64,000 nucleotides of DNA from Viola odorata (taxonomy: Eukaryota; Streptophyta; Magnoliopsida; Malpighiales; Violaceae), in NCBI GenBank assembly GCA_963691705.1, contig OY829539.1:63028327-63092326 (forward strand). The letters run 5' to 3'. Below are positions 2,322 to 50,320 of this stretch, one piece after another. The notes beneath the pieces were generated by a model, which was given only the letters and a program-made list of their open reading frames with translations, did no database searches and was not told the DNA's origin. Both the position numbers and the translations under genes were made by a program. Every line of letters starts with the position of its first letter. Within the stretch, counting starts at the first letter, position 1.

Positions 2322-2981
2322 AAGCATCCAATTACATCATTTCTTGTATAGTACTCCATACATTTTTTCAAAAACAATTGATTAAAGTCAACATAATAAT
2401 TAAAAGACTACATCACTACCCCTATCCCTCTTCTCGACACTCTCTCTCTTCTGGTACTGATCCGTTTGACCATGTTTGCTTAATCTCCTCCTATCTTCCT
2501 CATAATTCTAACCAATCAGGTAATTATTATTATATATTATAGTTCTACTCTCTCTTTTCTTCTGCTTATACAGATCCAATCTTGTTATATGTCTAGTTAA
2601 TCCAATCTTGTTATATGTCTAGTTAATCTGGTAATTTTGCTACCTCTTTTGATTATATAAATATCCATGTATGTGCTTATGATGTATTTGCTTCTTTTGA
2701 TCAGATCATTTGGAAAAACATCTTGTAGCTAATCAGCACCATCAATCATCATCACTGTACTTGTGCTGACCATCTGCTTTCTTATAATTTATAACCACAG
2801 CAGGTAACACCTTTTTTTTTCTGTTCATTATTCTGGTCTCCTCGGAACATATATTTCTATTTTTATTGGATGATAGTTGAGATTTCTTAATACTAATTCA
2901 ATTGCAGTTTTCATGTATATTTTATTTTTATCAGTCCTTTAATTAGTTGTTTTGTATAAATGCTGCAGGTTGTTGAGAAGA

Positions 2982-5709
2982 ATGGCAAATATTAAGCTGC
3001 ATTTCAATAAGGACAAAGAGAACGGCAAGTATCTGTGCAAACATTGTGGACATGATCTTGCTGGAACTACTTCTACAACAAGGTTAAGGGCTCATCTAAT
3101 CGGAGCGACCAATGCCGGTTCTAAAATTTGTCCAAACGTTCCTGATGAGGTTAAGAAGTCTTTGTCATGTGAAATCAACAAAAGGCAGAAAACCGCGCCT
3201 GGCTATGTCCTATCATCCCCTTCAAATCTTCCACCTGTAGAAACAGAAGGTGTCACAGAAGCGATGACATTAGTTTTGCCACCAAATGGGAGTGGTGCAA
3301 ACAATCAAGGAGGGGTGCAATTCTTGCCACAACAACATTCCACGCCACTCCAATACGTAGCAGAACTGAATGAGGGGGCCAAGAAGCCTTGTGGTCCAAC
3401 AGTGGGCTTGGAGGAGAAACTTGCTGAGGTTTTGAGGTACCTTGAGAAAGAAAATGTTGGGATTGTGGGTATTTACGGGCAAGGGGGCGTTGGGAAAACT
3501 ACGCTCTTGAAGAAAATCAACAACCATTTTGTTGACCATGGCTCTGAACGTTTTCTGGTGGTTTGGATTGATGTGCCCAAAGATATCAACCTTGAGGCCA
3601 TTCAGCAAGCCGTTGGAGAAAAGATTGGCCTTCTCGACAAATTGAAGGACATTAGTATCGAGGAGAAAGCTGCATATATATCCGAGAAATTGCAGCGAAA
3701 GAAGATCATCTTGCTGCTAGATGACATACGTAAGGCTATTAACCTTTCTAAGATTGGGATTCCTCCATCCTATAGTCTGAATGAATCCAGGGTAGTTTTT
3801 ACAACACGACCTGAACATGTATGCAAAAAAATGGAGCCGAAGCCTGGCTGGAGCACTAGCATAGAGACTTTGGGAGATGAAGAAGCTTGGCAACTGTTTG
3901 TGATGAGAGTTGGAGAGGATATCATCAACAGCCATCCACAAATTCAGCAGATTGCAAGAAGAGTAGCCAAAAAGTGTGGGGGGTTGCCACTAGCATTATC
4001 TATAATAGGTAAAGCCATGTCTTGCGAGAGAGAACCCAAAGTGTGGGAGCATACTGTCAAGACTTTTGAAAGACCATCCCTCCAACATTCAGAAGCTCAT
4101 CAGGATGCCTATGGGGTTAGTATGAGTGAATTGTTCTCAATTTTGAGGTATAGTTATGAAAATTTACCAAATGAGACATATAAATCATGTTTCTTGTATT
4201 GTGCTCTTTTTCCCGAGGGCTGTCTGGTTCAGAAAAAAAGCATAATAGAATATTGGATGTTTGAAGATTTTTGGATTGATTGTGATGATGATGACTTTGA
4301 CCCTCGTTGCGAGGCGTACCGTATTTTGAATGTTCTTGCTAGTTCATGTCTACTTGAAGATGAGAAAGATTGGGTAAAGATGCATGATGTGGTTCGAAGC
4401 ATGGCATTGTGGATAGGAAAAGAAGATACATTGGCTATGGCTGGGATGGAGCTCGAAGAAACACCAAGTGTTAGGATGTGGAAACAGATGAAAAGGGTGT
4501 CACTGATGGAAAATGACATTAAGGAGCTAAAGCAGGTACCTGCATGCCCTAATCTTTTGACTTTGCTTCTCAACAACAATAGACAATTGAATGAGATATG
4601 TACTGGATTTTTTGAATCCATGGGCATGCTGACTGTCCTGGACCTGTCGTTCACTAGTGTTGAGGAGCTTCAGCATATCAAGATTGGTTTTATTAAAATA
4701 CCTCAACATATATGGTACGAAGATAATAGAGTTACCTGTTGTGTTGATAAAAATGAAAGAATTAAGGTATTTGAATGTTGGTCACCTTACTAATCTAAGA
4801 TTCAGCAGAAAAAATCAAGTAATCCGCCAATTGTCATCATTGCAATTTTTGGGAATGACGTTTACGTATTATTATTATTATTATGAAGAGGATGAAATAA
4901 GCGAGGTAGAAGGGGGTGATGAGATTCTTTTGGAGGAATTGCAGGATTTAGAAAATTTGAAGGTGTTAAAGATCACACTACGATCTTTCTCAGGTCTTGT
5001 GAAATTGTTTAATAATCGTAGATTGTTGAAAATAACTCGAGATTTGTGCTTCATCGATATCAAAACTCCAAATCAGTCGATGGATATTTCTTTGTTAGCA
5101 CAAGCAAAACACTTGGAGGTGCTTGAGCTTATAATTTGTGATTTCAAAGAGTTGAAGAATAGCCAGGAATCTACTGATTCCAGCAGCAGCAAGCTCCTTA
5201 AAAGTACATCAACTGGTTTAACACAAATGATAAGTTTCAATAGCATCGAGAAGTTGGTTGTGGGTGGCTGCAATTACTTGGAGGATATAACATGTGTTGT
5301 TTCAATGCCAAATTTGAGACAGCGGTTTGTTGGTCATTGTGATGAACTAAGAGAAATAATCTGTAGGGAGAAAATAGGTGAAGTACCACTGGTAGGAAAG
5401 GGCGAAGAGGTGTATCCAGTATTTTCCAGTCTTGCAGTTCTGCATTTAAATAATCTTCCAGTATTGAAGAGTATTTACCCAAACAACACTCTGGCGTTGC
5501 GCTTCCTGTATGATCTTATCGTGAAGGATTGTCCACAACTGAAGAAGCTTCCAGTGGACCCTAATAGTGGTGTGTTGGGATGTAGTCAAATTAGGTTGTT
5601 GGCTGAAGAAGATTGGTGGGATGCGGTAGAATGGGAGGATGCTGCTGCTAAAGCTGCTCTATTACCCCGTTTCAATCTTTATAATCTCAGCCGGAAGGTA
5701 ATGATCTAA
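2982..5709 (+). pseudogene. BED-type zinc finger NB-ARC-LRR resistance protein, copy 1 (LRR frameshift)
   Basis: This is an intracellular immune receptor of the RPS2/RPS5-type NB-LRR group, with the usual coiled coil replaced by a BED finger. The chosen start follows a CTGCAG splice acceptor; two 5'-UTR introns precede it (donors near 2520 and 2805). Counted from the upstream in-frame Met at 2952, the BED ligands are Cys29, Cys32, His48 and Cys60, and the P-loop GQGGVGKTT starts near residue 176. Then follow kinase-2 (LLLDD), RNBS-B (FTTRPEH), GLPLAL, RNBS-D (CFLYCALFPE) and MHD. Relative to copies 2 and 3, five bases are missing at about 4677, so the first frame stops at 4793; the rest of the LRR stays open in another frame to 5709. 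A spliced C-terminus is possible: the donor at 5698 joins an exon that stops almost at once. The product would be a truncated BED-NB-ARC of about 603 aa unless the lesion is an assembly error. Confidence 0.85.
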
Positions 5710-7320: not shown

Positions 7321-9100
7321 ACCAATTATTATTCACATCAGATCATACAATATTGTAGCTTCTTGATATTGTCAACTTTTCATTATTAATAATAAAAATA
7401 AAACATTTATAATATTAATGGGGTGTGAGGGTCAAAAGAAGAAAGAAAAATAATGTGGCATGTTTCCTGACGTGTTTTGTTGATGTGGCAACGACTGAGT
7501 AGATGATGTGGCACATAACGATGCCATGTTAGCTCACCGTGACAGTAGGATTGTCATTAAACAAAATATTATAGTTCAAGGTGTAAAAAGACAAAAAATA
7601 GTTGAAGGTTTTCATTAAATAAAGCATTAAAGTTCAGAATCCCTTATTCTTTTTTACCAAATAACAATTACTTAAAATTAAATTGGAGGGATTAAATTAC
7701 AAATTATTTAAACGGGGTGTCTTTAAAGGAAAAAATGAAGGGACGTGAGGAAACTAGGGGCTAGGGCTGTGAAAAAAAGAGAAATCGAATTGAACCAACT
7801 GGTAAACTAAATCGAAAAATCGGTTATCCAATTAAAAAATAAAACTTTATCCGATTCATAAAATTAATTTTTTTACTATATTAGATATCCGAACGAGGAA
7901 TCATAGAATAACTAATTAATTTGAACCAAATCGATTCGAAGATAATCACAAGAGGAAATGAAGAAAACAGGAAGAATCGCAGAAAATGCAAACCCAGCCA
8001 TAGAAACCTCTTTTTTTCAGAGAAATCAAAGCTAAGAATGATAAAGCGGAAGAAATTCTGAGAAGGGTATCAGAGAATTGATGATACCTTACACGAGATA
8101 GGAACAACCAGAGTCCTCTCTTAGCATACAGCTCCTACAGTCCGATTCGAGTGAGGAAACTGAAGAACTGAGAAACGGAGGAAAGAGCCAAACCCTGGCT
8201 AAAACCCTGCTGCCCTTTTCGTTTTCTTTTTTTCTAATTATCTTTTTAATTTTGGTATCGGGCCGTAGCTTTGCTTACTTTGATGGACCCTTCAGTGCAA
8301 TAAGGTAGTTTTGACGAGGCAGGAATCAAATTAATCCACTTAAATGTGTATAACTACCAAAAAAATTCATGGGTACTGTAAATTCAAATAATTTAAATAT
8401 TTGAACTAAATTACAGAGTGATATTAAATGGATAGATAAATAAAACTATCCAAATGATTGAATCTTTTTGTGTTTTGTTGATTATCCGAACTAAGTGTAC
8501 ATAAATATTTTAGTAATTTTTAATTATCCAAACTAAATTAAAATTTAATTATTTAAAATATTGTTTTTTTCGGTTATTATTTTCCAAGATTTACAAACCA
8601 CAACCAAAAATTAAAATAATAAATAACAGTTTTACAGAAATTGAAATTTTAAGTTGCTGAATTTGTAATATAAATCTTATTTGTAGTGAATATATTATTA
8701 ATTGTTATTATAATATTAAGGATTGAAATTTAAACGTTATAAAAATAATATATATGTATATATATATACTAATTAGTTAAACTATATACTGTATTTGTAG
8801 TGAATATAGTCTATAAAATACTAATTACTAAATATATATACATACTTTATGAATTAATTTTTTTTTACAGTTTTACTAATGGAAATAAAAGTAACAAAGT
8901 AAATTAATTTTACAATGTTGTTTCCTTTTTTTATTCGTTGTATTAGAGATTAAAAAAGGATTTTATACAATGTAAATTATATTATATTATACTCCAAGTA
9001 ACAGTTTTACTGATGGAGTACTAATTAAAAAAGAAGAAGAATTTATGAATCAACCGTGAACCAATAGATTAAAGTCAATTGATATAATTAATTAAGATAT
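7321..9100. other. Intergenic region, no gene; possible captured 5'-UTR relic on the minus strand
   Basis: No coding frame is supported. The first 130 bp are DEFL 3' flank, with a homologous stretch at 28391-28510. Around 7960-8220, less AT-rich than its surroundings, the minus strand reads like a transcribed leader ending in a splice-donor-like CGTGTAAGGTATC, but no exon follows. The rest is AT-rich. Homology to the first NLR promoter begins near 9103. Confidence 0.4.
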
Positions 9101-9718
9101 AAAAAACAATTGATTAAGTCAACACAATAATAATTAAAAGACTAAATCACTATCCCTTCAAAAAAATAAGAAGAAGACTAAATCACCATCTCTCGACTCT
9201 TCTCTCTTTTACAGTATGTGTTCTATGTTCGTACAGATCCGTTGCCCCATGTTTGTTTAACCAATCTTCCTCATAATTCTAACCTCAGGTAATTACTATA
9301 GTTCTACTCTCTTTTTTCTCCTGCTTATACAGATCCAATCTTGTTCTATTTCTAGTTAATCTTTTGATTATATAGATATGTATGTGCTTATGATGTATTT
9401 GCTTTTTTGATCAGATCATTTGGAAGAACATCTTGTAGCTAATCGGCACCCTCGATCATCATCATTCATCGCTATACTTGTGCTGTGCTGATCATCTGCC
9501 ACAGCAGGTAATTAAAAGTCTATCATTGTGGTTCCTATTATTTGTTTCTCTAATTACCGACCAAAGTCAACATGTATTTCTATTTTTATTGGATGATAGC
9601 TGAGATTTTTTGTTGGATGATAGTTTTGACTAATTCAATTGCAGTTTTGCAGTATATTTTATTTTGACCAGTCCTTTAATTAGTTGTATTGTATAAATGC
9701 TGCAGCTTCTTGAGAAGA

Positions 9719-12700
9719 ATGGCAAATATTACGCTTCATTTCAATGAGGTCGTAAACATAGAGAGCGGCAAATATAAGTTGCAGTGTAAATATTGTCTAC
9801 ATGTTCTTGCTGGACATACTTCACCAACAAGGTTAAGGGCTCATCTAATCGGATCGCCTAAAGCCGGTGTTAAAATTTGTCCAAATGTTCCTGATAGGGT
9901 TAAGAAGTCTTTGTCATGTGAAATCAACAAAAGGCAGAAAACCGCGCCTGGCTATATCCTATCACCCCCTTCAAATCTTCCACCTGTAGAAACAGAAGGC
10001 GTGACAGAAGCAGTGATGCCATCAAATGAGACTAGTAGCAATCCCCACCAAATTGAGGGTGGTGAAAACAACCACTATATCCCATGCTTTTCACCAGAAG
10101 TAAACAACGACTTCGGCAATATAGGACAGCACAACTGGTTGGGATATGAACATGAAAGTATTGATGAGTATCTTGTTCGACTTCGAGATAGCATGCCAAC
10201 ACCTCCAAATGAGTGTGGTAGTGTTGAACATTTGTTACTTCCAAATGATGTGGCAAATTTTTCAGTTGAAGAAATGGAAGATTATCAAGACACTAGAGAT
10301 GAAGAAACGGATCCAACTAATATTTCACCCAACATGAGGTTTAGAAGGAGTATTACTAATTGGGAAAGGGGTAAGCTTTTGGGACATGGGTCATGTGGAT
10401 CGGTGTATGAAGGATTGTCTGAGTAAGTGCTGAACTTGTGTTGTTAATTTGTCATTATTTTAGCCCTTTGTTAGTTGGCATATGCGCCTCTCCTTATTGT
10501 AGTTTCTTATCTTTGGTTTTGATTAGTGTTGTCATTTCTCTCTCTTCGATTATGTTCAAAATTTCTTCTAACATGCTTTAATAGTGGGTGAGTTTGCTTA
10601 CTTTTTGAAATCTTGAAGTTACAAACTGCAGACTTTAGGATTAGTCTTGACTTAATTGTAGCATTGTGGATTATATCTGCCCCGTCCGTATTTAAGTGAG
10701 GAATGAGCATCAGGCCTGATATGCGGGATTCTTTGATCATTTATTTTGAAATAGAAACTTAAAATCCTTGCACTTTTGCTTTAACCCTTGATGATGTTTT
10801 AAGGTCTGCCATTGCAGTTCAATAGAGATGGTGTTTTTGCTCATCTTTCCTGCATTAATATGATAGGGTATTAATGCTGTGTAGGTAACTAAGTGATATT
10901 CTGAAAGTTGAGATCTTCAGGCTCCAAATATAGTTGGCTGTAGAGTTGAGATCATGACATAATAGATATCTTGGATCAGTCAAGATCTCGGGTGTACATT
11001 TCGATTGGTAGCTATTATATTGGGAAGAGGGAGATTACAGTTTGTATTTTTTGTTGATCATTTGGTGTTCATATGAAGCCATTATAGGCGCTTAGGCTTT
11101 ATTTAACTTCTGAAGGATTTCTCCTTGCTAATGTTTTTGATCGGTTGTTCTCTCTCTTAAGAAGTGTATTTGGATGTGAAACAAGAAATGCATGATTTTC
11201 TGGCTCGTTAGGCGAAACCTATTAGTGGGCCTATCTATAAGTTATTGTTTAAAGATTAGCTTTCATTGACAGACATTTCTATGTTGCTGTGGTTAATTAA
11301 TTTTTTGTCTCTCGCAGTGATGGGTTCTTTTTTGCTGTCAAGGAGGTCTCATTACTTGATGATCAAGGAAGTCAGGGGAAGCGAAGTATTATTCACCTCG
11401 AGCAGGTGATACATGCTTATCTCGTACCAAACCATAGCAGCATTGTTTGATTGTGTTTCTCTTCCGTGATTATGGTTTTTGGACGCCTTAATGTTCTCGT
11501 GTTTCTCTTGATGAAATATGCATGTGTGTTTTCAGGAGATTAATCTTTTAAGTCGGATCGAGCATGAAAACATAGTTCAGTACTATGGCACTGATAAGGT
11601 ACTGGTTTCTTTCTTTCTTTAAATCGAAGTATTCTGAATGCATCTAAAGGAAGTGAAGTCACACTATGTTTCTTTTGTGCTCTTTTTACATATGCCTATT
11701 TTGTTAAACATCTGCTGTGGTGGATTTCAGCAAATTTTCGTATGATGATTGGGATGGGTTTTTGGTGTTACTCCAGGGTGGAAACTGTAGCTTCCATTTT
11801 AACTAACTGAATGCACAAAACTGTTCGATGAACCTTAAACTTGGACTGTAGATGGAAAGGATGCTTTGAGTATGATATTGCTGTATTTAATCTTGTATCA
11901 CTCCAAATTTTAGAACCAGAGCATATATTTTTCTTTATGTTTTTCAGAAGCATGGAGTATAGATAGTATTTGCTGAAACAATTTATATCTTTCCCTCCTG
12001 AAGGAATACCTTAGCTTAATGAGCTAATCTGGCTATTATTATGAGAAAATTATCTATCCACCATAGAAATGCATGAAATGCATGAAATGCAAAAGACATT
12101 TCTATTGAGGCCTTGGTACGTGCTAACTGATAACTTTGTAACTTCCATCTTTTGAGGTATAGTTTTTTTTTATTGGAATTTCTATTTCCTGAGACACCTT
12201 ACTACTCTTTTTCTTTCTTTATTCAATATTAGAGCCTGTTCTAGGCCAGAGGAATTATGGGATTCAAACCTGACGGAGTGAATAAGGAACTTTTTTGCCA
12301 CTATATCATTGTTTGATCCTCACTAGCATTTTATAGCAGTTTATAGGTCATCATAACACAGCTGGTGGTGTCGTTATCCATAATAATTTCTAATCTATAT
12401 AGGAAGGAAACAAATGCCTGATGGGAATAAAGCACCTTATAATTCTAATATCCTACCTTATAAGAGAAGAAATTTCCTGAATTACTTAACTGACTGGGGC
12501 CCAAAATTGGAAATGGGTAATCTCTCAATCTCCTTAGGAACTTGCTAAATGATTAGTTGATTTGGAATTTGGGAATAATGAGCAGTAGAATACCTACTGA
12601 TACAATGACTTGAGTGAGAGTATGGAAAATTCACATTTTCATAGGCACATTTCATTTTTCATAGCTTTCTTTCTCATTTTCGATTGTTATGTTATCACTG

Positions 12701-15139
12701 TCAGTGCATAGGTTTGTTTATTGATTTGTTTTGTGTTTTGATTTTTTGCAGGATGAATCAAAACTATACATCTTTCTAGAGCTTGTAACTAAAGGCTCCC
12801 TTTTAAATCTCTATCAAACATACAAACTCCGAGATTCCCAAGTTTCTGCGTACACAAGGCAGATTTTGCATGGTTTGAAATATCTTCATGACCAAAATGT
12901 TGTTCACAGGTGATATAAGTGAATTGATTGTGCCATTTTTAATATACTTTGCCGGTGGTTGTTTGATTCCGTGATTTTATTTTATGATGGGTTGTATTGG
13001 GTAAGATATTTGTTTTATTTGACTTTGACGTATTCTATCTTCATAAGTCAAAAACATGTTGGTCTTCCATGTGTTGTTCTCCTGTTATAGTGTCGTTATT
13101 TTTGCCTTCCAGAAAGATTTCTGTAGGATCATACTCATTGAAGATTGAGTCTATCACCTTTTAGTTCGGTGTTCATGCTTCTTGGTTAACTTTAGGAGGA
13201 CTATGGTTTCTAGTAGGGTACTCCCATGCTACAGTTTTGAATGAGTAGCTTCTACCAGCACAACATTTGACACTGTAATCTTACGATCTGAAATGCAAGT
13301 TAAGAGAAGCCAACAAAGGAGTCATCTATGGAATACACAAACACACACACACACTTCTTATGCGCATTTGCCTAGTCATAATGATTTCTTTTTGGAGAAG
13401 TTTGTTGTTACATACTCCCAATTGAAGCATTAGATCTGTTGGTATTCATGAATCACGATGCATACATGTGAATGCATGAGTTCAAGTGTACACACCAGCA
13501 CATATTTTGTGTTACTTATTTTCTTCAGTGTTATGACCATCTTTTTTCTGGGTTTCAGGGATATCAAATGTGCAAACATACTAGTTGATGCAAATGGATC
13601 TGTTAAGCTTGCAGATTTCGGATTAGCCAAGGTTTGATCATCTTTATTCAGCTGATATTCTCTTGTCATAAATCATCAGAGCTTCAAGATAGCCTTGGCT
13701 GTTCTTAATATTTTCCTGTTTTCTCTTTCCAGACCACGAAATTAAACGATGTTAAATCTTCCAGGGGAACTGCATTTTGGATGGCTCCTGAGGTTTGCCT
13801 CCATGCCTTTTGGTTTGGAAAAAATCAATTATTGTAAACATTAAGCTTATCAAAATAATACTTCACGTATGCATCGATCATGATTTTTATGGCACTTGTT
13901 AATTTAGTGAAGAAGGTTAACATTATGATTTTGCTGGCGTAAGCTAATTGGTACGCATGATGTCTTTTAGAGGGAATTTATTCTCTTGGTAAATCTTCAG
14001 TGGTTAAATTTAGATGATGCTTTTTAGATGTGTTTGTTAGTTCCTGAATTGTGATGCATGTATTAATGAAGGAGTACCAAGTTCCTGATGCCATTTAGTG
14101 TAGAGCAAAAGCTATATATTTGAACTGCATGCATCAAACAGAAAGTAACAAACACAGAGACACATCAAGCTGAAATTCAAATACTGGAATTTAACAAGCA
14201 TATGATGGTGGAGTATGACTTAATCCGTGGGATTGTCTCACGTTTTCTCGCTCTATCACACTCATAGCCATAATAATCTCAGGGCTGATGGATGGTTGAG
14301 GATAGTCGTTATTGCTGCTTGAGTCTTTGTTGCCCTTCCATTTTTTCATACTGAAGCTATTCTGTTAGTTGTTGGATCGTTTTGCTTGGTAATCAGATGG
14401 ATTGAGCCTGTTCATTTGTGGTGCATTGGCACTTCTATCGTCTTACAAAAGAAGAGAGGAGGATAATTGCAAGATATTTTCCTGTGTAATTTTTCTCTAA
14501 GACTATTGGGATGTATCATTTCAAATATTTTGGAGTATATGTTTCTAATATCTTTCAGTGCTGCAGGTTGTCAATTTAAAAAACCAAGGATATGGCCTTC
14601 CAGCAGATATATGGAGCCTTGGATGCACTGTGCTGGAGATGTTAACCCGTCAACTTCCATATTTTGATTTGGAACCTGTAAGTTGTAAGTTCTTATAAGT
14701 TTGTACAACAATTACAATATTTCCATTGCATGTCATGTGAAATTTTGGTCAACCTGTTTATTGGTGCTCTTGTTCTGGCTTGTTTACAACTAATCTTTAT
14801 AATAAGTTAGGCATTCAGTATGGAACTGTTAGTTTTTTGTTTTACCATGGCGATCTTGGGACACATGCCATTGCAGTATTGCCTTTTCCCTTCAAATATT
14901 GACTTCTTTTTCACTTTTTGTAACTGTAGATGCAAGCTCTGTTTAGAATTGGTAGAGGTGTACTGCCACCTGTGCCCGATTCTCTCTCACCTGATGCACG
15001 GGATTTTATCTTGCAATGCCTAAGAGTTAATCCTGATGATCGTCCCACTGCTGCTCAGCTCTTGGGGCATGCATTTGTCAAGAGACTGCTTTCAACAAAT
15101 TCGGGTTCTGCGTCTCCTTACATTGGTAGACGGTCTTAG
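9719..15139 (+). CDS. BED zinc finger fused to MEKK1-type MAPKKK catalytic domain
   Basis: Eight exons (9719-10422, 11318-11405, 11536-11598, 12752-12909, 13559-13631, 13733-13792, 14567-14677, 14930-15139) sum to 1467 nt, giving 488 aa with no stop. Residues 1-60 are the BED finger of the neighbouring NLRs (Cys23, Cys26, His42, Cys54). Residues to about 115 continue the NLR linker and are closest to NLR copy 2. An acidic linker follows. The kinase domain starts near residue 214: glycine loop Gly222/224/227, catalytic Lys243, HRD 337-339, DFG 357-359, and GT-x-FWMAPE near 374-382 (family GTPFW, here GTAFW). It closely resembles Arabidopsis MEKK1 through the end of the domain. All catalytic residues are present, so an active Ser/Thr MAP3K is expected. 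The 5' flank and UTR introns match NLR copy 1, suggesting co-regulation. The fusion point lies inside exon 1, not at an intron. Transcription is unproven. Confidence 0.88.
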
Positions 15140-16027
15140 AAGTTTTCCCATCACATCAAGAGGAGCTGTTTGGTGGTGATTGGCGGCTTTTCACCAGTAG
15201 ACTACTTTTCAGAAGAAGCAATTTGCAGCCTTTTGTCCTAACCTCCATAACAGAGTTATGTATGCGTGGCATTTGATGGGTAGCTAACTGAGCATCGAAG
15301 AGTAAAAAGTTCTTAAATTTTATTATATATTTGCTTCAAAAGAAGAAGAAAGAAAAACAATCCATTGGTTGTACTCCGATGACAAAGCATCAATCCATTT
15401 GTTGTGTTTGGAATGTTACGACTGTTCTGTGCTGCTTACTTGCCAGATACCGGCCCCGTGCGACCCGTGAAGGCCCTAAGCCTTGTCGTATTCAGGTCAA
15501 CGTTAGCAGCACATATTGTTGAGGGTATATACGCATGTCGCCTAGCGAAAAGGGTGGATCCTGCTAATGCAAATGCATTTTCATTGCGTTTTCTGTTGAA
15601 AGAGCCAATAATTAAAGGCTTAAGTTGTTCTAATGTCTACCCATACCTTTGGCATTCTTGTAGAACTTTTTCCCCCTTTCTTGTAGTATTTGATTTCCGG
15701 TTGACTTGGCCCTGAGGGAAAATTCTAAAAAAAAATGACAGCACATGAACAAATTAGGTGTGGGAAACTGACAATTTATCTTTATATTATACTTCCAACT
15801 TGTGTTTTAGAAATGAGGAAAATTATTTGAATAACATCACCATTATTCATCTATAATAAATGAGAAAAATAATTGTTTTTATATTATAAATTATGAGCTA
15901 TGAATAAACGAAGTTCATATCTAATGGTAAAGAGCATATCATTTTATTTTAACATTTAAAATTGGTGATGTAAATGTGAAATCAGACCTTGTGCTTGCTT
16001 TGATATTGGCAAGCATGGGACTCTTAG
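15140..16027 (+). other. 3' flank of the BED-kinase gene and junction to the next NLR unit
   Basis: The kinase 3' UTR probably occupies the first few hundred bases. Open frames at 15331-15715 lack any recognisable domain and are not called. Homology to the 5'-UTR first exon of NLR copy 1 resumes abruptly at about 16028, so the second BED-NLR unit begins partway through that exon and lacks the promoter found in front of copy 1 and of the kinase. Confidence 0.5.
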
Positions 16028-16503
16028 ATCTTCCTCATAATTCTAACCAATCAGGTAATTATTATTATATATGATAGTATAGTTCTACTCTCTTTTTTCT
16101 TCTGCTTATACAGATCCAATCTTGTTATATTTCTAGTTAATCTGGTAATTTAGCTACCTCTTTTGATTATATAAATATCCATGTCTGTGCTTCTTTTGAT
16201 CAGATCATTTGGAAAAACATCTTGTAGCTAATCAGCATCGTCAATCATCATCACTGTACCTGTGCTGATCATCTGCTTTCTTATAATTTATACCCACAGC
16301 AGGTAAACACCTTCTTTTTTTTCTGTTCATTTTTCTGGTCTCCTCGCCCTCGGAACATGTATTTCTATTTTTATTGGATGATAGTTGAGATTTTTTGTTG
16401 GATGATAGTTTTGACTAATTCAATTGCAGTTTTGCAGTATATTTTATTTTCCCCAGTCCTTTAATTAGTTGTATTGTATAAATGCTGCAGCTTGTTGAGA
16501 AGA

Positions 16504-19183
16504 ATGACACATATTAAGCATTTCAATAAGGCCAAAAACAAAGAGAGCGGCAAAGATGAGTATCGGTGTAAATATTGTCCACATGTTCTTGCTGGATCTA
16601 CTTCATCAACGAGGTTAACAGCTCATCTAATGGGAGCGACTAATGCCGGTTCAAAAATTTGTCCAAATGTTACTGATGAGATTAGGAACTCTTTGTCACG
16701 TGAAATCAACAAAAGGCGGAAAACCGGGCCTGACTATATCCTATCACCCCTTTCAAATCTTCCACCTGTAGAAACAGAAGGTGTGACAGAAGCAGTGATG
16801 ACATCAAATGAGACTAATAGCAATCCCCACCAAATTGAGAGTGGTGCAAATCAACAACTATATACCCAGGGGGCCATGAAGCCCTGCGGTCCGACAGTGG
16901 GTTTGGAGGAGAAACTTGCTGAGGTTTTGAGGTACCTGGAGAAAGAAAATGTTGGGATTGTGGGTGTTTACGGGCAAGGGGGTGTTGGGAAAACTACTCT
17001 CTTGAAGAAAATCAACAACTACTTTGTTGGCCATGACTCTGAACGTTTTTTGGTGGTTTGGATTGATGTGCCCAAAGATACCAACCTTGAGGCCATTCAG
17101 CAAGCCGTTGGAGAAAAGATTGGCCTTCCTGACAAATTGAAGCACAGTAGTATCGAGGACAAAGCTGCATATATATCCGAGGAATTGCAGCGAAAGAAGA
17201 TTATCCTGCTGCTAGATGACATACGTAAGGCTATTAACCTTTCTAAGATTGGGATTCCTCCATCCGATAGTCTGAATGAATCCAAGGTAGTTTTTACAAC
17301 ACGGCCTGAACATGCATGCAAAAAAATGGAGCCGCAGCCTAGCTGGAGCACTAGCATAGAGACTTTGGCAGATAAAGAAGCTTGGAAACTGTTTGTGATG
17401 AGAGTTGGAGAGGATACCATCAACAGCCATCCACAAATTCCGCAGATTGCAAGAAGAGTTGCCAAAAAGTGTGGGGGGTTGCCAGTAGCGTTATCTATAA
17501 TAGGTAAAGCCATGTCTTGCGAGAGAGAACCCAAAGTGTGGGAGCATACTGTCAAGACTTTTGAAAGACCATCCCTCCAACATTCAGAAGCTCATCAGGA
17601 GGCCGATGGCGATAGTATGAGTGAGTTGTTCTCAATTTTGAGGTACAGTTATGAAAATTTACCAAATGAGACATATAAATCATGTTTCTTGTATTTTGCT
17701 CTTTATCCCGAGGGCTGTCTGGTTCAGAAAAAAGGCATAATAGAATATTGGATGTTTGAAGATTTTTGGATTGATTATGATGATGATGACTTTGACCGTC
17801 GTTGCGAGGCGTACCGTATTTTGAATGTTCTTGCTAGTTCATGTCTACTTGAAGATGAGAAGGATTGGGTAAAGATGCATGATGTGGTTCGAAGCATGGC
17901 ATTGTGGATAGGAAAAGAAGATACATTGGCTATGGCTGGGATGGAGCTCGAAGAAACACCAAGTGTTAGGATGTGGAAACAGATGAAAAGGGTGTCACTG
18001 ATGGAAAATGACATTAAGGAGCTAAAGCAGGTACCTGCATGCCCTAATCTTTTGACTTTGCTTCTCAACAACAATAGACAATTGAATGAGATATGTACTG
18101 GATTTTTGAATCCATGGGCATGCTGACTGTCCTGGACCTGTCGTTCACTAGTGTTGAGGAGCTTCCAGATAGCATATCAAGATTGGTTTCATTAAAATAC
18201 CTCAACATATATGGTACGAAGATAACAGAGTTACCTGTCGTGTTGATAAAAATAAAAGAGTTAAGGTATTTGAATGTTGGTCACCTTACTAATCTAAGAT
18301 TCAGCAGAAAAAATCAAGTAATCCGCCAATTGTCATCATTGCAATTTTTGGGAATGAGGTTTACATATTATTATTATTATTATGAAGAGGGTGAAATAAG
18401 CGAGGTAGAAGGGGATGATGAGATTTTTTTGGAGGAATTGCAGGATTTAGAAAATTTGAAGGTGTTAGAGATCACACTACGATCTTTCTCAGGTCTTATG
18501 AAATTGTTTAACAACCGCAGATTGTTGAAAAGAACTCGAGATTTGTGCCTCATCGATATCACAACTCCAAATCAGTCCATGGATATTTCTTTGTTAGCAC
18601 AAGCAAAACACTTGGAGATGCTTGAGCTTATAATTTGTGATTTCAAAGAGTTGAAGAATAGCCGAGAATCCACTGATTCCAGCAGCAGCAAACTCCTTAA
18701 AAGTACATCAACTGGTTTAACACAAATGATAAGTTTCAATAGCATCGTGGTTGTGGGTGGCTGCAATTACTTGGAGGATATAACATGTGTTGTTTCAATG
18801 CCAAATTTGAGACAGCTGTTTGTTGGTCATTGTGATGAACTAAGAGAAATAATCTGTAGGGAGAAAATAGGTGAAGTACCATTGGTAGGAAAGGGCGAAG
18901 AGGTGTATCCAGTATTCTCCAGTCTTGCCTTCCAGTACTGAAGAGTATTTACCCAAGCAACACTCTGGCGTTGCGCTTCCTGTATGATCTTACCGTGAAG
19001 GATTGTCCACAACTGAAGAAGCTTCCATTGGACCGTAATAGTGGTGTGTTGGGATGTAGTCAAATTAGGTTATTGGCTGAAGAGGATTGGTGGGATGCGG
19101 TAGAATGGGAGGATGCTGCTGCTAAAGCTGCTCTATTACCCCGTTTCAATCTTTATAATCTCAGCCGGAAGGTAATGATCTAA
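16504..19183 (+). pseudogene. BED-type zinc finger NB-ARC-LRR resistance protein, copy 2 (two frameshifts)
   Basis: This is a close paralogue of copy 1 with the same splice acceptor before the ATG. The BED finger is followed by NB-ARC with P-loop GQGGVGKTT, LLLDD, FTTRPEH, GGLPVAL (Leu to Val in the GLPL motif), CFLYFALYPE and MHD. Two lesions break the LRR. A run of six T after the GGA codon is five T at about 18104-18108, stopping the first frame at 18126. A 19-nt deletion near 18930 stops the second frame at 18941; the tail is open again from 18971 to 19183. A 6-nt in-frame deletion lies near 18748. The homopolymer change could be an assembly error but the 19-nt deletion is not that type. 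The 3' exon is interrupted by a solo LTR at 19338. Confidence 0.85.
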
Positions 19184-22902: not shown

Positions 22903-24010
22903 CATAAAAGCTTTCTTTCTAGGCCAAAAGACTATTTAGCCATATAGGCGATTTGATCATTCACCATTCCCTATTAGACAATTTTCTCATTGACTTTTGC
23001 AAAATTGTCAACTTAATCCATTAAGTAGCAATTGGTGCTGCTGAAACAACAAAAGAATGGACCCAAGCAAATCGATTCCCTTCTGTATAAAAACTTGCCA
23101 TTTTCTAACCTCCATAAATAACCCCTTGAGACAATCCCATCCTGCTTGTACAAACTCTTTCAATCTTTCTTGTGATTTAAATTCTAAAAGGACCAAACCC
23201 TGAATGTCTGGGATGTTTTACATTTTCTTACCCAACTGTCCGCAATTCTCCTCACCAAAAACGGAGAGGAATTGACCAACTGTGACCTTTTTTCTTTTGG
23301 TTTTCCTTTTTTTTTAATTCTAAAAATTAGTTTTACATTTTATTTTAATTTGCACATTTTTAAGAAGTTTATTACGTTCAAAATTTTTACATTTTTTAAT
23401 TTGCTCCTGAATGTCTGGGGTATTTTTCTATTTTATTTTGCATTTTCAAAATTTTTGAAATTCTCTATTTCACATTTATAGTTTTTTTTTTCATTTTTTT
23501 CTCACATTTCAAAATTTGACTATTCATTGAGATTCATATTTTTCCCTTTTTTTTACTGTTATACAAGAAAAGTTACGGAATGAAAAAAGAATTGCATAAC
23601 TTTATAAGGATTCAGTAACTTTTCTTAAATATTCTGTAATTTCTTGTTTTAATTCTATAATATGTTCATTATTATTTTAGGTCCAACTGTATTTTTTATA
23701 TCTTTTAACCCCATTTAAAAAAAATCTAAATTTTTTGACTACTTTATTTCAATTTTTTAAGTATAGGTGGTTAAGCTCTATTTTATTTGAATTTACCCTT
23801 AGTTTTATTGGAGAAAATATATACTTGGGCCACATATATGGTCACTAAGGAAAGCTAAATTGTACCACAAAAGCATGCATGCTTCACATCTGGATGAAGA
23901 AAGCATCACCGGTGCAAGCCACTGACAAATCAATTTTTTGTGTGTAGAAAATTAGTATTGAAAATGAAATTTCAATTCCCACAAGTAATAAAACTTTTTT
24001 TCTGCAGACC
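22903..24010. other. T-rich intergenic stretch between CC relic and CC-NLR
   Basis: No gene is supported. The stretch is rich in T runs. A pyrimidine tract followed by CTGCAG sits at about 24000-24007, just before the CC-NLR ATG, and could be the acceptor of a 5'-UTR intron. Confidence 0.5.
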
Positions 24011-24021
24011 ACCAGCTAGAG

Positions 24022-26481
24022 ATGGGTAATGTTATCAGCTTGGATCCTTTGATCAAGCGAGTTTGTGATGGCGTGGTGGATTTCAGTTATGAGTTTGCTG
24101 TTAAACACGCAGCTTATGTATACAGTCTTCAACACAACCTTCAAGAGTTGGACAAAAATCTGGATAACCTGCAGACTCTAACTCTAAGGAACGAGTTGAT
24201 TCGAAAAATCGCACTCAAACAAGGGTATCAGATGCAGATGGGTGAAAGAGTTTGCTCGTGGATTACGAGGGTGGAGAAGGAAATCGTCAGAGGTGCTCAG
24301 TTGAAAATAGAAGGTGACCGCCAAGTTGATAGACTGTGTCTCGCCGGAATTTGCTCTACGCACTATTTCTCAACCTCCGTATTTGGCGGGCAGGTAGACA
24401 AATGTGTGAAAGAGCTAAACCATCTTAAAACCACTAGAGAAGGGTTCACTGATGAAGATCTCGTTGTAGAGGCTGTAGCAGAACTGAACGAGGGGGCTAA
24501 GAAGCCTTGTGGCCCAACAGTGGGCTTGGAGGAGAAACTTGCAGAGGTTTTGAGGTACCTAGAGAAAGAAAATGTAGGGATTGTGGGTGTTTATGGGCAA
24601 GGGGGTGTTGGAAAAACTACTCTCTTGAAGAAAATCAACAACCATTTTATCGACCATGACTCTGAACGTTTTCTGGTGGTTTGGATCGATGTGCCCAAAG
24701 ATACCAACCTTGAGGCCATTCAGAAAGCCGTTGGAGAAAAGATTGGCCTTCCTGACAAATGGAAGAACAGTAGTATCGAGGACAAAGCTGCATATATATC
24801 CGAGGAATTGCAGCGAAAGAAGATTATCCTGCTGCTAGATGACATACGTAAGGCTATTAACCTTTCTAAGATTGGGATTCCTCCATCCCATAGTCTGAAT
24901 GAATCCAAGGTAGTTTTTACAACACGGCCTGAACATGCATGCAAAAAAATGGAGCCGCAGCCTGGCTGGAGCACTAGCATAGAGACTTTGGCAGATAAAG
25001 AAGCTTGGAAACTGTTTGTGATGAGAGTTGGAGAGGATACCATCAACAGCCATCCACAAATTCCGCAGATTGCAAGAAGAGTTGCCAAAAAGTGTGGGGG
25101 GTTGCCACTAGCGTTATCTATAATAGGTAAAGCCATGTCTTGCGAGAGAGAACCCAAAGTGTGGGAGCATACTGTCAAGACTTTTGAAAGACCATCCCTC
25201 CAACATTCAGAAGCTCATCAGGAGGCCGATGGGGATAGTATGAGTGAGTTGTTCTCAATTTTGAGGTACAGTTATGAAAATTTACCAAATGAGACATATA
25301 AATCATGTTTCTTGTATTTTGCTCTTTATCCCGAGGGCTGTCTGGTTCAGAAAAAAGGCATAATAGAATATTGGATGTTTGAAGATTTTTGGATTGATTG
25401 TGATGATGATGACCTTGATCCTCATTGCGAGCCATACCGTATTTTGAATTTTCTTACTAGTTCATGTCTACTAGAAAATGAGAAGGATTGGGTAAAGATG
25501 CATGATGTGGTCCGAGGCATGGCATTGTGGATAGGAAAAGAAGATACATTGGCAATGGCTGAGATGGAGCTAGAAGAAACACCAAGTGTTAGGATGTGGA
25601 AACAAATGAAAAGGGTGTCACTGATGGACAGTGACATTAAGGAGCTAAAGCAGGTACCTGCATGCCCTAATCTTTTGACTTTGCTTCTCCTAGGAAATAG
25701 ACAACTACGTGAGATGTGTACTGGATTTTTTGAATCCATGGTCATGCTGACTGTCCTGGACCTGTCAAACACTAGTGTTGAGGAGCTGCCAAAGGGCATA
25801 TCAAGATTGGTTTCGTTAAAATATCTTGACATATCAGGTACGAAGATAACAGAGTTACCTGTTGCGTTGATAAAACTAAAAAAGTTAAGGTATTTGAATG
25901 TTGGGCGTCTTGAGAATCTAAGACTCAGTAGAAAAAATCAAGTAATCCACCAGTTGTCATCTTTGCAATTTTTGAAAATGAGGTTTACGAATTATTATTA
26001 TGAAGAAGATGAAATAAGCAAGGTAGAAGGGGATGATGAGATTCTTTTGGAGGAATTGCAGGATTTAGAAAATTTGAAGGTGTTAGAGATCACACTACGA
26101 TCTTTCTCAGGTCTTGTGAAATTGTTTAACAACCGCAGATTGTTGAAAAGAACTCAAGATTTGTGCCTCATCGATATCACAACTTCAAATCAGTCCATGG
26201 ATATTTCTTTGTTAGCACAAGCAAAACACTTGGATGGGCTTAAGCTTATACATTGTGATCTCAAGGAGTTGAAAAATAGCCAGGAATCCACTGATTCCAG
26301 CAGCAGCAAGCTCCTTAAAAGTACATCAACTGGTTTAACACAAATGATAAGTTTCAATAGCATCAAGACGTTAGTTGTGGGTGGCTGCAATTACTTGGAG
26401 GATATAACATGTGTTATTTCAATGCCAAATTTGAGACAGCTGTTTGTTGGTTATTGTGATGAATCTGTAAGGAGAAAATAG
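24022..26481 (+). CDS. CC-NB-ARC-LRR resistance protein, copy 3 (C-terminally truncated)
   Basis: This is an RPS5/RPS2-type CNL immune receptor of 819 aa. The N-terminus MGNVIS fits an N-myristoylation site (Gly2, Ser6), as in plasma-membrane RPS5-type receptors. Residues 20-150 form the coiled-coil domain. NB-ARC motifs: P-loop 192-200, kinase-2 LLLDD 270-274, RNBS-B FTTRPEH near 299, GGLPLAL 359-365, RNBS-D 429-438, MHD 493-495. LRRs run from about 520 onward. From the AELNEGAKKP segment on it is nearly identical to BED-NLR copies 1 and 2, so the CC has replaced the BED module or the reverse. A 13-nt deletion relative to copy 1 near 26465 shifts the frame and ends the protein at 26481, losing about the last 105 residues. 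It could still be expressed as a slightly short receptor. Confidence 0.88.
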   Translation: MGNVISLDPLIKRVCDGVVDFSYEFAVKHAAYVYSLQHNLQELDKNLDNLQTLTLRNELIRKIALKQGYQMQMGERVCSWITRVEKEIVRGAQLKIEGDRQVDRLCLAGICSTHYFSTSVFGGQVDKCVKELNHLKTTREGFTDEDLVVEAVAELNEGAKKPCGPTVGLEEKLAEVLRYLEKENVGIVGVYGQGGVGKTTLLKKINNHFIDHDSERFLVVWIDVPKDTNLEAIQKAVGEKIGLPDKWKNSSIEDKAAYISEELQRKKIILLLDDIRKAINLSKIGIPPSHSLNESKVVFTTRPEHACKKMEPQPGWSTSIETLADKEAWKLFVMRVGEDTINSHPQIPQIARRVAKKCGGLPLALSIIGKAMSCEREPKVWEHTVKTFERPSLQHSEAHQEADGDSMSELFSILRYSYENLPNETYKSCFLYFALYPEGCLVQKKGIIEYWMFEDFWIDCDDDDLDPHCEPYRILNFLTSSCLLENEKDWVKMHDVVRGMALWIGKEDTLAMAEMELEETPSVRMWKQMKRVSLMDSDIKELKQVPACPNLLTLLLLGNRQLREMCTGFFESMVMLTVLDLSNTSVEELPKGISRLVSLKYLDISGTKITELPVALIKLKKLRYLNVGRLENLRLSRKNQVIHQLSSLQFLKMRFTNYYYEEDEISKVEGDDEILLEELQDLENLKVLEITLRSFSGLVKLFNNRRLLKRTQDLCLIDITTSNQSMDISLLAQAKHLDGLKLIHCDLKELKNSQESTDSSSSKLLKSTSTGLTQMISFNSIKTLVVGGCNYLEDITCVISMPNLRQLFVGYCDESVRRK

Positions 26482-26494
26482 GTGAAGTACCACT

Positions 26495-26798
26495 GGTAGG
26501 AAAGGACGAAGAGGTGTATCCAGTATTCTCCAGTCTTGCAGTTCTGCATTTAAATAATCTTCCAGTACTGAAGAGTATTTACCCAAGCAACACTCTGGTG
26601 TTGCGCTTCCTGTATTCGCTTACCGTGAAGGATTGTCCGCAACTCAAGAAGCTTCCATTGGACCCTAATAGTGGTGTGTTGGGATGTTGTCAAATTAAGT
26701 TATTTTCTGAAGAGGATTGGTGGGATGCGGTTGAATGGGAGGATGATGATGCTAAAGCTGCTTTATTACCTCGTTTCAATCTTTATAACCTCAGCTAG
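26495..26798 (+). pseudogene. Displaced C-terminal LRR of NLR copy 3
   Basis: The terminal LRR region is still open in a second frame, with the same closing residues as copies 1 and 2 (EEDWWDAVEWED then LPRFNLYNLS), ending at a TAG before the 3' intron donor at about 26807. It is cut off from the main frame by the 13-nt deletion. Confidence 0.8.
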
Positions 26799-32884: not shown

Positions 32885-35800
32885 ATGGCGTTTAGGTTAG
32901 GATTAGCATTACTTCTATTGAGCATTGGCGCACTTGCGGCGCCTGTGCTCTCCGATTTGGTCCTCTCCAGGGTGGATCGCCGCGTAAGTGTTTCATCACT
33001 TATCTGTTCAACAGATCTGTTGCATCAAATTTCGATCATTTCTTATGCGGCGAGCTATGTTAATAGATGAACCCTTTATTTTATAATATTTCAAATTTGG
33101 TTTCTTTTGATAAATGCTAATGCTTGATCAATATCATTTGCAGGTCGATTTGACATCACAAATCGTTCGCATTTCTTCGACATTAAAGGTTTTAAACTTT
33201 CATCTTTTGTCTTATATATATTCGTTTCGTTGATTTTTTTGGGTTCTTTTTTGACTTATTAGTCCTATTATTAGTTTCAAATTTGGCTGCGGATTCTTGG
33301 CCCTGCTAGTTATAAGTTATGTTTCCATACATTAGGTACTGACATCTTAATTATCATTACTTGACTCTTAGGTGGAGAATGAGGGTCCTGGCTTGGTTTC
33401 AGAGGTTTTGCTGGCTTTCCCTAAGGTACAGGAAAAGGATTTGGCGTATTTGAAGGCAGCGACTAATGAAGGGAAAGGGAGAGTGAAAAGTTCCAGTGTT
33501 AACCTCCCTGTTCAGGTTGCCCATCCAAAAGGATTACCACCAGACTTGAGCTTTTACTCCGTATCGTTACCCAAGCCCCTTGGTGAGGGCGAGAGCTTGA
33601 CTTTTGATGTCTCGGCTGTATTTACACATGCACTGAAACCGTTTCCAGAGAAAATCACTCAGGCTGATGTTCAACTAGTGTTGTTCCAGGATAGTGCGTA
33701 TTATCTCTCTCCTTATCCAGTCAAATTTCAGTCATTCACCGCTAAGCTTCCTGGAAATAGAATAGAGACATACACAAAAATCGAGAATACCAAACTTCAT
33801 GGCTCAGAGATCAAATATGGCCCCTACGAAAACCTCCCTCCGTTCTCGTATGCACCCATAGTTGTTCACTTTGAAATCAATCAACCTTTTGCTGTTGCAC
33901 AAGATTTAGTTCGTGAGATCGAAATTTCTCATTGGGGCAGCGTTCAAGTGACAGAGCACTACAACATTATACATGGAGGGGCTGAGAGCAAGGGTGAATT
34001 TTCCAGGTCAATTACCTCACTCTATTATTGTTTTCAAATTCTGTTTGTGGCTTCTTTGATGCTGAGTTTTCCCTTCAATCCTACAGACTCGATTACCAGG
34101 CCAGACCCAATGTTAGAGGTGCATCAGCCTTCAGTCATCTTGTTGCTAAATTGCCTCCTAGAGCTCACTCCATTTATTATAGGGATGAAATTGGAAATAT
34201 ATCGACATCTGATTTGTGGAGTGATTTAAAAAAGGTGAATATTGCGATTATGTGATGCAAATTATTGCAACTTTTTATTCTGATTTTAACTCGGTCTTGT
34301 TTTCGTTTCCAGACAGAACTAAGAATTGAACCTAGATATCCTCTATTTGGTGGCTGGAGGACTGCTTTTACCATTGGATATGGCTTGCCACTTGAGGACT
34401 TCTTGTTTGGGTCAGAGGGGAAGCGTTTCCTAAACTTCTCTTTTGGTTCCCCTATGAATGACATGGTCATTGACAAAATAATTTTGAAGGTAGGTAGTAT
34501 AATGGATTTTAGTTCAAATTTCTATCTGATTTATTTTTTTGTCTAATTGTTAGAGCATTACTATCTCTGACTGCCAAAAACACTTTGGTTCAGTCTCATA
34601 TGAAAAATAAGAAGGAAATCAGTCGATAAGGTTCCATTTTGCTTTGAATCATGATGAGCCTTGGCTTAATGTTAGCTAGCCAATCTTTGTCAGAGAATGT
34701 CCCCAAACCCCCACTAGAAAGTGGCTTCGAGTATGTGCAAGTTCTTAATGTGTTTGCAAGTTCTATGCTTGATGAGGTCCCATTTTCGGTCTATCCGCTG
34801 ATGAGCTTTGGATTACTGTTAGCCAACCAATCTTTGTCAGAGGTTACATTTGCACCCTAGGGAAAAGTCGCTCCAAGCCTTTTCCTCTATAAATGTTAAT
34901 CTACAAGGTCTTGTTAACTGTTTGTAACAATTTTCTATGTTCATGTTTGTTTAGTCTAAATTTTCATGTGTTTAAATTGCAGTCTTTTGGTTTATAAAAA
35001 TACTATTGTTTGTACACTCTTGACTTGGTGTTTGATTTCAGGTTGTTTTGCCGGAGGGATCTGGAGATATCTCTGTTTCCACGCCATTTCCTGTAAAACA
35101 GGAGCAAGAGGTATTAAGTGCCTCAAAGATATTCTTGTCTACCCTTATTATTCTTGAAAATAATTATCATCATCTTTTAAACTGTTTTTTCTTAGTGGGG
35201 CTTGTTTTCTATAGTTTAAATTGGTACTGTGTGTCTATGTTTGTCTTCTTTTTATCTTTCCCATGTTTTGGTGCAGACCAAAGTTTCACACTTAGATGTT
35301 GGTGGTAGACCTGTAGTTGTCCTGGAAAAAGACAACATTGTACCAGAGCATAATCAACATTTCCAGGTATTCATATGGCTTCCTTTCAATTGAATGAATG
35401 AATTAAGGCTATCATTACCTTAGTTACAAACACAATTTATTAGAATGTGGGAAATTCATAAGATCATGGATGACATGCAGTGGTCTTGTTGAAATTTCAT
35501 GAAAAATCCTGTAGAATTCATTACCTTTGACATTAATTCCCAATGTTAAAATTATGAGTACCTTCATCTGTTCACTATGAAGGAAGAATGGGGAAAAAAA
35601 TTGAGGCAGTAATTTTCTGTTTAAAATATATGGTTCAAATTTTAATTTTTAACTCTTTGTTTGGAAATAAGGAAACGGAACAGAAGGAAGTGAATTAACA
35701 AAAGGGAAGGGAGGGGAGTGGAAGTTTTTTTTTATCATGTATTCTTTGGATAAGAGGAAGGAAGAGATGAAAAAAAAAATTACATGCGTGCCCTCTAACT

Positions 35801-49000: not shown

Positions 49001-50320
49001 GTTAAATTCAAATTCAGCCTTGGAAGAGGTCAAGAAACACGGAGAATACGACATTGCAAGAGGGAAAGACAAATGGGAAGGTACTAATACTTAAGATCTA
49101 TAATTCTCGAACAATGTCTAAAGAGAAACCAGAAAGAGTCGCGTTACAAACATTAAGCAGCATTTGGACGTCCCCCTTCACTTTGTTCTACATGTGTACT
49201 CCCATCAAATATTGTCAGTCGACCAGAAATAACCAAGCATAGTCTATATAGGTGGCTTTAATTTGAGCCAAAAGGATGGAAGGATATACACTTGCAATAC
49301 TAATATCAAACAGATACTACTTCCTAAACAAGAAATGCTTACCCCCTTGCACCCTTTGCTTGGCTCTTCTGCACCGGCCAAAGACCTGTGGAGATACGAG
49401 AGAAGCCTGCGGCGATGTTCCTTCTGACCAAGTTCACCTTTTCCGTAACTTTTCTTTGGGGGACACGGTAACATAGTATTTGCGTATCTTAAAGGGATAC
49501 AGATCTCAGCAATGTAGTTTTGACTGAATGACATTAGAAGAGATATAAATCCTAAAACCATCAACTCTGCAAGAAAGAAAAGAAAATCACGGAAAAGGGT
49601 AATGCTCATCACTTGGAATTCACTAACGTTCATCAAACAACGTCTGGAAGGAGAACAACGAAAGGGGATTTAGGGACACCTACCGGTTTTAACTTTCTGA
49701 AGAGCTTCAAATAAACCACTCTTGTTTCTTCTCCGAAACAACTGAGACAAAACCAGTAGAATGAGGTTGGCAGGAAATGATCAAAATATAGGAGAAATTA
49801 AAGAAAGGCTGGGTTTTTCCAGAGAACGGTCGAACAGAATTTTTTCCATAAAAATCTACAAAGATGCATTAAAGAAAATCTCTAAATATGTTGTGCAACA
49901 TCAATCCTTCAAAAATGGTGAAAAAAGATGGAAAAATCTCAAACTAAGGAATAAATAACCATTCACATCCCAAATTTGCCATGTTAAACCAAAAATCCAA
50001 AATTCATTCTCAATGGTTAAGAACTTATAATGCAGAAACCAAATTTAGAGGCAATCCAATGATTAATCTCTCTAAATTGCAGATGATATAAATAAATGGT
50101 TTGGCTACCAAACAAAAAAGAAGAAGGAAATGAAAGATTCATTTTCTTGAACATATAAAAAAAAGGAATTACAAAATTATTCACTTCTTACCTCTCCCGC
50201 CTTATGAAGAAGCTTCTCTAATATGATAGAGACTACAACTATTCCAGCACAAACAAAAGCCAATGCCCATGTCGGAGTCTCGTCTAGGCGCCTTGCACCA
50301 GGCGCTCTATCGCCCGCCAT
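46094..50320 (-). CDS. MLO: MLO-like seven-transmembrane protein, AtMLO5/8/10-like group
   Basis: Fifteen exons on the minus strand (50320-50192, 49741-49684, 49566-49343, 48880-48764, 48556-48499, 48400-48312, 48165-48091, 48016-47928, 47724-47675, 47558-47518, 47433-47260, 47165-47130, 47046-46979, 46694-46634, 46432-46094) total 1608 nt, encoding 535 aa with no stop. MLO signatures: [121 protein letters not shown], then a calmodulin-binding helix ([14 protein letters not shown]). MLOs are plasma-membrane, calmodulin-binding proteins now linked to calcium influx. The C-tail lacks the D/E-F-S/T-F motif. The end of exon 13 and its donor are tandemly duplicated (120 bp). The group is judged from memory. 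Confidence 0.93.
46733..46800. repeat. Possible tRNA-derived SINE head
   Basis: An A-box-like CTAGTGGCGAGGTG is followed about 30 bp later by a B-box-like GAGTTCAAATTCGAT, the pol III promoter layout of plant SINEs. No tail or target duplication was established, because a 120-bp tandem duplication begins inside it. Confidence 0.35.
46781..47020. repeat. 120-bp tandem duplication covering part of MLO exon 13 and its splice donor
   Basis: 46781-46900 and 46901-47020 are near-identical (two differences noticed). Each unit contains the last 40 or so exon-13 bases and the donor GGGTAAG (minus strand), so the transcript offers two copies of the exon end and donor. Confidence 0.95.

Follow-up and report, generated by a model that had tools for sequence, protein, structure and literature searches.

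The closest precedent in print that we found for the gene described here is WRKY19/MEKK4 of Arabidopsis, a fusion of a WRKY domain, a nucleotide-binding leucine-rich repeat receptor (NLR) and a kinase (PMC4759884). In Arabidopsis, the MEKK1-MKK1/2-MPK4 cascade is a negative regulator of MEKK2, whose role is described as structural rather than that of a kinase and which scaffolds LET1 and SUMM2 (PMC7519094). The soybean protein GmMEKK2 is catalytically inactive; it binds both GmMKK1 and GmMPK4A, and it blocks the cascade (PMC12665255). Divergent members of the MEKK family alter the MEKK1-MKK1/2-MPK4 module in both reports (PMC7519094; PMC12665255). Among the NLRs that carry a BED finger (BED-NLRs), truncations of Yr7 indicate that the nuclear localisation signal (NLS) proximal to BED is functional, and dicot BED-NLRs seldom carry an NLS near BED (PMC7761493). 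The gene considered here lies in a 64,000-nucleotide stretch of Viola odorata DNA (assembly GCA_963691705.1, contig OY829539.1, positions 63,028,327 to 63,092,326 of the forward strand), the whole of which is called the window and supplies all coordinates below. The gene unites, in one open frame, the 5′ portion of a BED-NLR with a complete kinase domain that resembles MEKK1.

Anatomy of the fusion gene

A first-pass annotation of this DNA had proposed a single open frame of eight exons leading from a BED module to a kinase, and the gene model bears this out. The joined coding exons amount to 1467 nt, that is 488 codons and a stop with no internal stops, and all seven introns are GT-AG with matching phases:

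9719..10422, + strand: coding exon 1, with the BED finger, the KRQK helix (71-74), the linker, the middle segment and the start of the kinase with its G-loop
11318..11405, + strand: coding exon 2, holding the catalytic Lys243
11536..11598, + strand: coding exon 3, spliced open frame
12752..12909, + strand: coding exon 4, spliced open frame
13559..13631, + strand: coding exon 5, with DIKCAN of the catalytic loop and DFG
13733..13792, + strand: coding exon 6, with the end of the activation loop, GTAFWMAPE
14567..14677, + strand: coding exon 7, spliced open frame
14930..15139, + strand: coding exon 8, with the stop codon and the C-terminal tail SGSASPYIGRRS

One open frame joins the kinase domain to another module, which is what defines a kinase fusion protein. 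The Pkinase match (PF00069, 226.9 bits) covers residues 216-469 and profile positions 2-263 of 263. With hits up to E 1 admitted, Pfam lists no NB-ARC for the 488 residues. The annotation's complete domain with Lys243, HRD and DFG was recovered: the catalytic motifs are K243, HRDIKCAN at 337, DFGLAK at 357, MAPE at 379, DIWSLGC at 396 and DDRPTA at 455, the subdomain XI Arg is present, and from its sequence the kinase looks catalytically complete. The proposed MEKK1 type stands less firmly. It comes mainly from a comparison with the AtMEKK1 kinase domain, in which 200 of 274 aligned residues (73%) are identical to a non-database copy of that sequence; the best PDB match is 9p6a, an entry named MAP3K2 (E 1.1e-58, from the best 60 of 2780 matches). 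The MEKK signature is given as G(T/S)Px(W/Y/F)MAPE in PMC12665255. The fusion reads GTAFWMAPE, with Ala for Pro, and departs from it. Since GTAFW also occurs in other dicot MEKK1 proteins, the signature is a weak criterion, and we use "MEKK1-type" below as a probable description of the kinase without claiming the membership as proven. In a contamination check against prokaryote genome contigs, none of the 64 pattern matches was a relative.

Loss of the BED finger through cryptic splicing was considered and rejected, as no donor in exon 1 scores 7 or more out of 9. The seven donors in use score just 5-7, however, so that the absence of a strong cryptic donor is weak evidence; exon 1 has three acceptor candidates, the best at 10097. 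Rfam gave no match at gathering scores in 9000-16600.

Origin of the 5′ half in a BED-NLR

Residues 1 to about 120 of the fusion protein are derived from a BED-NLR, as is seen by comparison with the neighbouring genes:

9231..9705, + strand: 5′ leader common to the BED-NLRs, by alignment and by BLASTN homology to the NLR1 and NLR2 leaders
9719..9946, + strand: BED module, residues 1-76, with the zinc-ligand pattern C23, C26, H42, C54; Pfam score under the cut-off
2982..5706, + strand: BED-NLR1; loss of 5 nt after 4671 breaks the frame
16504..18938, + strand: BED-NLR2; two deletions break the frame, one of 1 nt after 18102 and one of 19 nt after 18928
23992..26795, + strand: NLR3, which has no BED; loss of 13 nt after 26461 breaks the frame

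The leader and BED module had been said to be common to the flanking NLRs, and BLASTN agrees: leader, start codon and BED are 82% identical to BED-NLR2 (9264-10083 with 16028-16866) and 75% identical to BED-NLR1 (9231-10011 with 2454-3262). The fusion BED shares 72% identity with that of NLR1 over 111 columns, and the C23, C26, H42, C54 pattern is invariant across the three copies. The BED label depends on this homology to the neighbours, because zf-BED in the fusion scores 16.1 bits in Pfam (residues 18-43), under the curated cut-off of 20.6. The NLR1 BED passes at 24.8 bits; the NLR2 BED scores 20.7 bits as a 147-aa piece and is unlisted at E 0.001 within a 540-aa piece. Two leader introns are proposed from splice sites read by eye (donor 9289 with acceptor end 9414, and donor 9508 with acceptor end 9705). 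The only basic motif near BED in the fusion is the KRQK at 71-74, and the roughly 140 residues between this basic helix and the kinase domain have low prediction confidence. The anatomy of the gene, its open frame, its intact catalytic motifs and the origin of its 5′ half are legible in the DNA itself; that the gene is made under BED-NLR control we infer.

When the three NLR copies found in the window are aligned, each proves to have frame-breaking deletions in its LRR, while the frame of the fusion is intact. The 1-nt deletion in BED-NLR2 sits in a T run and could be a sequencing slip. Over the 405 codons that reach from NB-ARC up to the first LRR, pairwise dN/dS among the three NLRs is still 0.29-0.38, so their decay looks recent. 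The suggestion that the fusion pairs with the flanking BED-NLRs loses ground here, since pairing with these copies, two of them BED-NLRs, is less likely when all three are broken in frame.

The junction and the foreign block

The first-pass annotation had put the junction inside the large first exon, where we located it at about 10083. Homology to NLR2 ends at this point, in the linker directly preceding the NB-ARC start KPCGPTVGLEEK, and the kinase therefore occupies the position of the NB-ARC and LRR. A 1-nt gap in the alignment near 10068 leaves the last few linker residues out of NLR2's frame. On the downstream side, NLR2 homology to the fusion leader begins at 16028, and upstream of that there is no NLR-like DNA. 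These two limits define 10084-16027 as a foreign block, which contains the 3′ part of the kinase gene and a fragment of a second gene:

10085-10330, + strand: middle segment between BED-NLR linker and kinase, 82 open codons
15398..15577, + strand: TMEM254-like fragment directly 3′ of the kinase gene (Pfam PF14934, 35.3 bits, cut-off 23)

The TMEM254-like fragment was possibly carried along with the kinase gene and, together with the non-NLR segment at about 10084-16027, suggests an insertion or deletion event. Two histories fit. The foreign block (~5.9 kb) could have been inserted into the first exon of a BED-NLR, with duplication of some 820 nt. Alternatively, a BED-NLR could have stood next to a kinase gene, and a deletion between the two could have removed the NB-ARC-LRR and the 5′ end of the kinase gene. 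Transposon capture was rejected, as none of the four direct and three inverted repeat families in 9950-16200 flanks 10084-16027. A direct repeat of 14/15 nt links the fusion junction (10086-10100) with the 3′ region of the kinase gene (15186-15200); it may be filler DNA or chance, and since a rough hand estimate puts the chance expectation at about one match of this kind per 6 kb, we gave it no weight.

The middle segment is probably the end of the N-terminal region of MEKK1. In noncoding DNA, 94 of 16206 overlapping windows of its length are free of stops, which makes it unlikely that the segment is open by chance. Its coding score of 0.082 per codon is within the noncoding range (the 95th percentile of stop-free noncoding windows is 0.101), so composition is no proof of a coding past. 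Against the rest of the window the segment gave only short matches at chance level (best E 0.53). An origin as an NLR1-type linker was unconvincing, with a local score P of 0.025 in one of three tests and 0.83 and 0.10 in the others.

Selection and age

Over 114 codons, the fusion and BED-NLR2 are separated by 3.8 silent and 38.2 replacement changes (dS 0.051, dN 0.160, ratio 3.15; Fisher two-sided p 0.030 for the replacement excess), and so few silent changes arose in 0.07-0.33% of neutral simulations (3000 per kappa, four kappa values). This pair is one of three and was chosen after the fact; the other two BED pairs, with ratios of 0.80 and 0.77 (p 0.44 and 0.45), have no overall excess. The excess has a one-sided p of 0.083 when columns 9-22 are removed, 0.117 over columns 23-119 and 0.32 over columns 23-60, so that diversifying selection on BED is a non-robust hint. 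When NLR1 is used to polarise the changes, 13 replacements and 1 silent change fall on the branch of the fusion, 15 replacements and 3 silent changes fall on that of NLR2, and 4 changes stay unpolarised.

The noncoding leader is 0.19 distant from that of NLR2 (73 of 437 sites), far over the silent 0.05. If 0.19 were the neutral rate, it would be the silent sites that are unusually few, not the replacements that are many. Most of the leader divergence is in 9470-9589, and elsewhere the 60-nt blocks of 9290-9709 total about 13 differences, which is consistent with 0.05. The copies have visibly exchanged sequence: some blocks of the fusion are NLR1-like and others NLR2-like. In 9470-9589 the fusion is unlike both BED-NLR copies, which agree there, and this stretch may have been replaced.

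The chance that the frame and the splice dinucleotides should both still be intact was calculated for three neutral distances. At 0.0125 neutral substitutions per site in the fusion lineage it is 0.17, 0.08 and 0.04 for indel ratios of 0.05, 0.10 and 0.15, respectively; at 0.025 it is 0.029, 0.007 and 0.001, and at 0.05 it is at most 0.001. The distance for these calculations was taken from the BED split, and the fusion itself may be younger than that distance suggests.

Other features of the window

Further along the window are exons of other families:

33372-34226, + strand: Ribophorin I exon
49247-49669, 58631-59074 and 61073-61432, - strand: Mlo-family exons

Two of the Mlo exons cover one and the same N-terminal portion of the profile, so Mlo must be present in two or more genes or copies.

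Possible function and alternative explanations

The reading that we favour, tentatively and at somewhat less than even confidence, is that this is a real, fairly young chimera of a BED-NLR and a MEKK1-type gene whose product is most likely MEKK2-like. A BED-NLR would have contributed its 5′ end, with leader, start codon, BED finger and linker, and a MEKK1-type gene its 3′ part, giving a product of 488 residues that consists of a BED finger, a basic helix, a stretch of about 140 residues and a complete kinase domain. Such a protein might bind MKK and MPK4 partners and shift the MEKK1-MKK1/2-MPK4 balance by scaffolding or competition, as MEKK2 does, and its BED module might either send it to a new address, such as the nucleus or a BED partner, or offer effectors a surface to bind. 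We infer every step of this mechanism beyond the anatomy. A MEKK2-like role fits best with a MEKK1-type kinase that has a new N-terminus and is probably under BED-NLR control, even though the fusion kinase appears catalytically complete. The link between SUMM2 and the MEKK1 cascade, to which the earlier annotation had appealed, is backed in print (PMC7519094). A stronger form, in which the fusion is a functional immune protein whose NLR-derived BED addresses a MEKK1-type kinase directly, which is kept intact beside decaying NLRs and whose BED is diversifying, we regard as unlikely.

The locus could instead be a by-product of rearrangement, young, open by chance and either silent or unselected. 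Broken NLRs and a TMEM254-like fragment lie nearby, as they do in chance rearrangements, and an open frame is unsurprising at low ages (up to 0.17). That is a possibility to be taken seriously, if a doubtful one, given that the frame, all seven pairs of splice sites and every kinase motif that was sought are intact. Alternatively, the complete set of catalytic motifs could mean that the product is an active MAP3K with a new input, in which BED stands in for some or all of the MEKK1 N-terminus and output through MKKs follows localisation or oligomerisation mediated by BED. Active sites are kept intact in NLR-fused kinases (PMC4759884), but the activity of the fusion is predicted from its residues, MEKK2 is described as structural (PMC7519094) and GmMEKK2 as lacking activity (PMC12665255), and we hold this explanation to be rather improbable. 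It is less probable still that the fusion is bait, a mimic of an effector target that is watched by an NLR, with BED as its variable surface. Kinases and BED are both frequent integrated domains (PMC7761493; PMC4759884), and the 38.2 replacement against 3.8 silent changes between the BED module of the fusion and that of BED-NLR2 (p 0.030), set beside 0.29-0.38 for dN/dS in the NB-ARC of the NLRs, speak for it. However, the excess fades on removal of columns (one-sided p 0.083; 0.32 for columns 23-60), the two other BED pairs are without overall excess (p 0.44 and 0.45), and the adjoining NLRs are broken in frame. Finally, the fusion comes from a single assembly, in which two unrelated pieces could have been joined in error. 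This we consider very improbable, as the junction is in frame inside a 704-nt exon that passes in the correct phase into exon 2, and the homologous leaders differ by 18-25%, which makes the collapse of near-identical repeats unlikely.

A BED finger tied to a MAP3K would allow the role of BED, whether as an address, a partner or an effector target, to be read as MAPK activity, apart from the activation of an NLR. If the chimera is what we propose, a sensor module of an NLR has been re-used without the NLR, bypassing the NB-ARC and LRR, and NLR clusters can donate sensor modules to signalling kinases in addition to capturing domains from them. New in the present analysis are the decay of the NLRs, the TMEM254-like fragment and the limits of the block, the non-robust replacement pattern in BED, and the WRKY19/MEKK4 precedent.

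Comparison with known systems

The annotation knew of no described BED-MEKK protein, which agrees with the literature searched: no BED-MEKK or BED-kinase protein is described in the excerpts among the matches listed from the open-licence literature. It had left the close precedent of WRKY19/MEKK4 unmentioned. A survey of plant kinase fusion proteins was likewise absent among the matches listed in that literature. The fusion is like the cereal kinase fusion proteins (such as Lr9, Sr43, Pm4 and Pm57) in being an unusual kinase or kinase fusion, theirs being encoded by resistance genes; unlike it, they have no BED fusion in the excerpts among the matches listed. The kinase families of the cereal proteins also differ from that of the fusion.

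With the BED-NLRs Xa1, Xo1, Yr7, Yr5a and Rph15, the fusion shares a BED upstream of the NB-ARC position and a basic motif near BED (PMC7761493), whereas a kinase takes the place of their NB-ARC-LRR. In the type of its kinase domain it is like Arabidopsis MEKK1, MEKK2 and MEKK3 and soybean GmMEKK2, as judged from the 200 of 274 residues shared with the non-database copy of AtMEKK1. The N-termini of those four proteins are not known to be BED modules. WRKY19/MEKK4 is presumably the product of At4g12020. At4G12020 is named as an NLR-kinase and, like the fusion described here, WRKY19/MEKK4 is a single protein, derived from an immune gene, that has a kinase named as a MEKK alongside a domain of DNA-binding type (PMC4759884). 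WRKY19/MEKK4 retains the NLR core, in contrast to the Viola odorata fusion, which has BED without NB-ARC or LRR.

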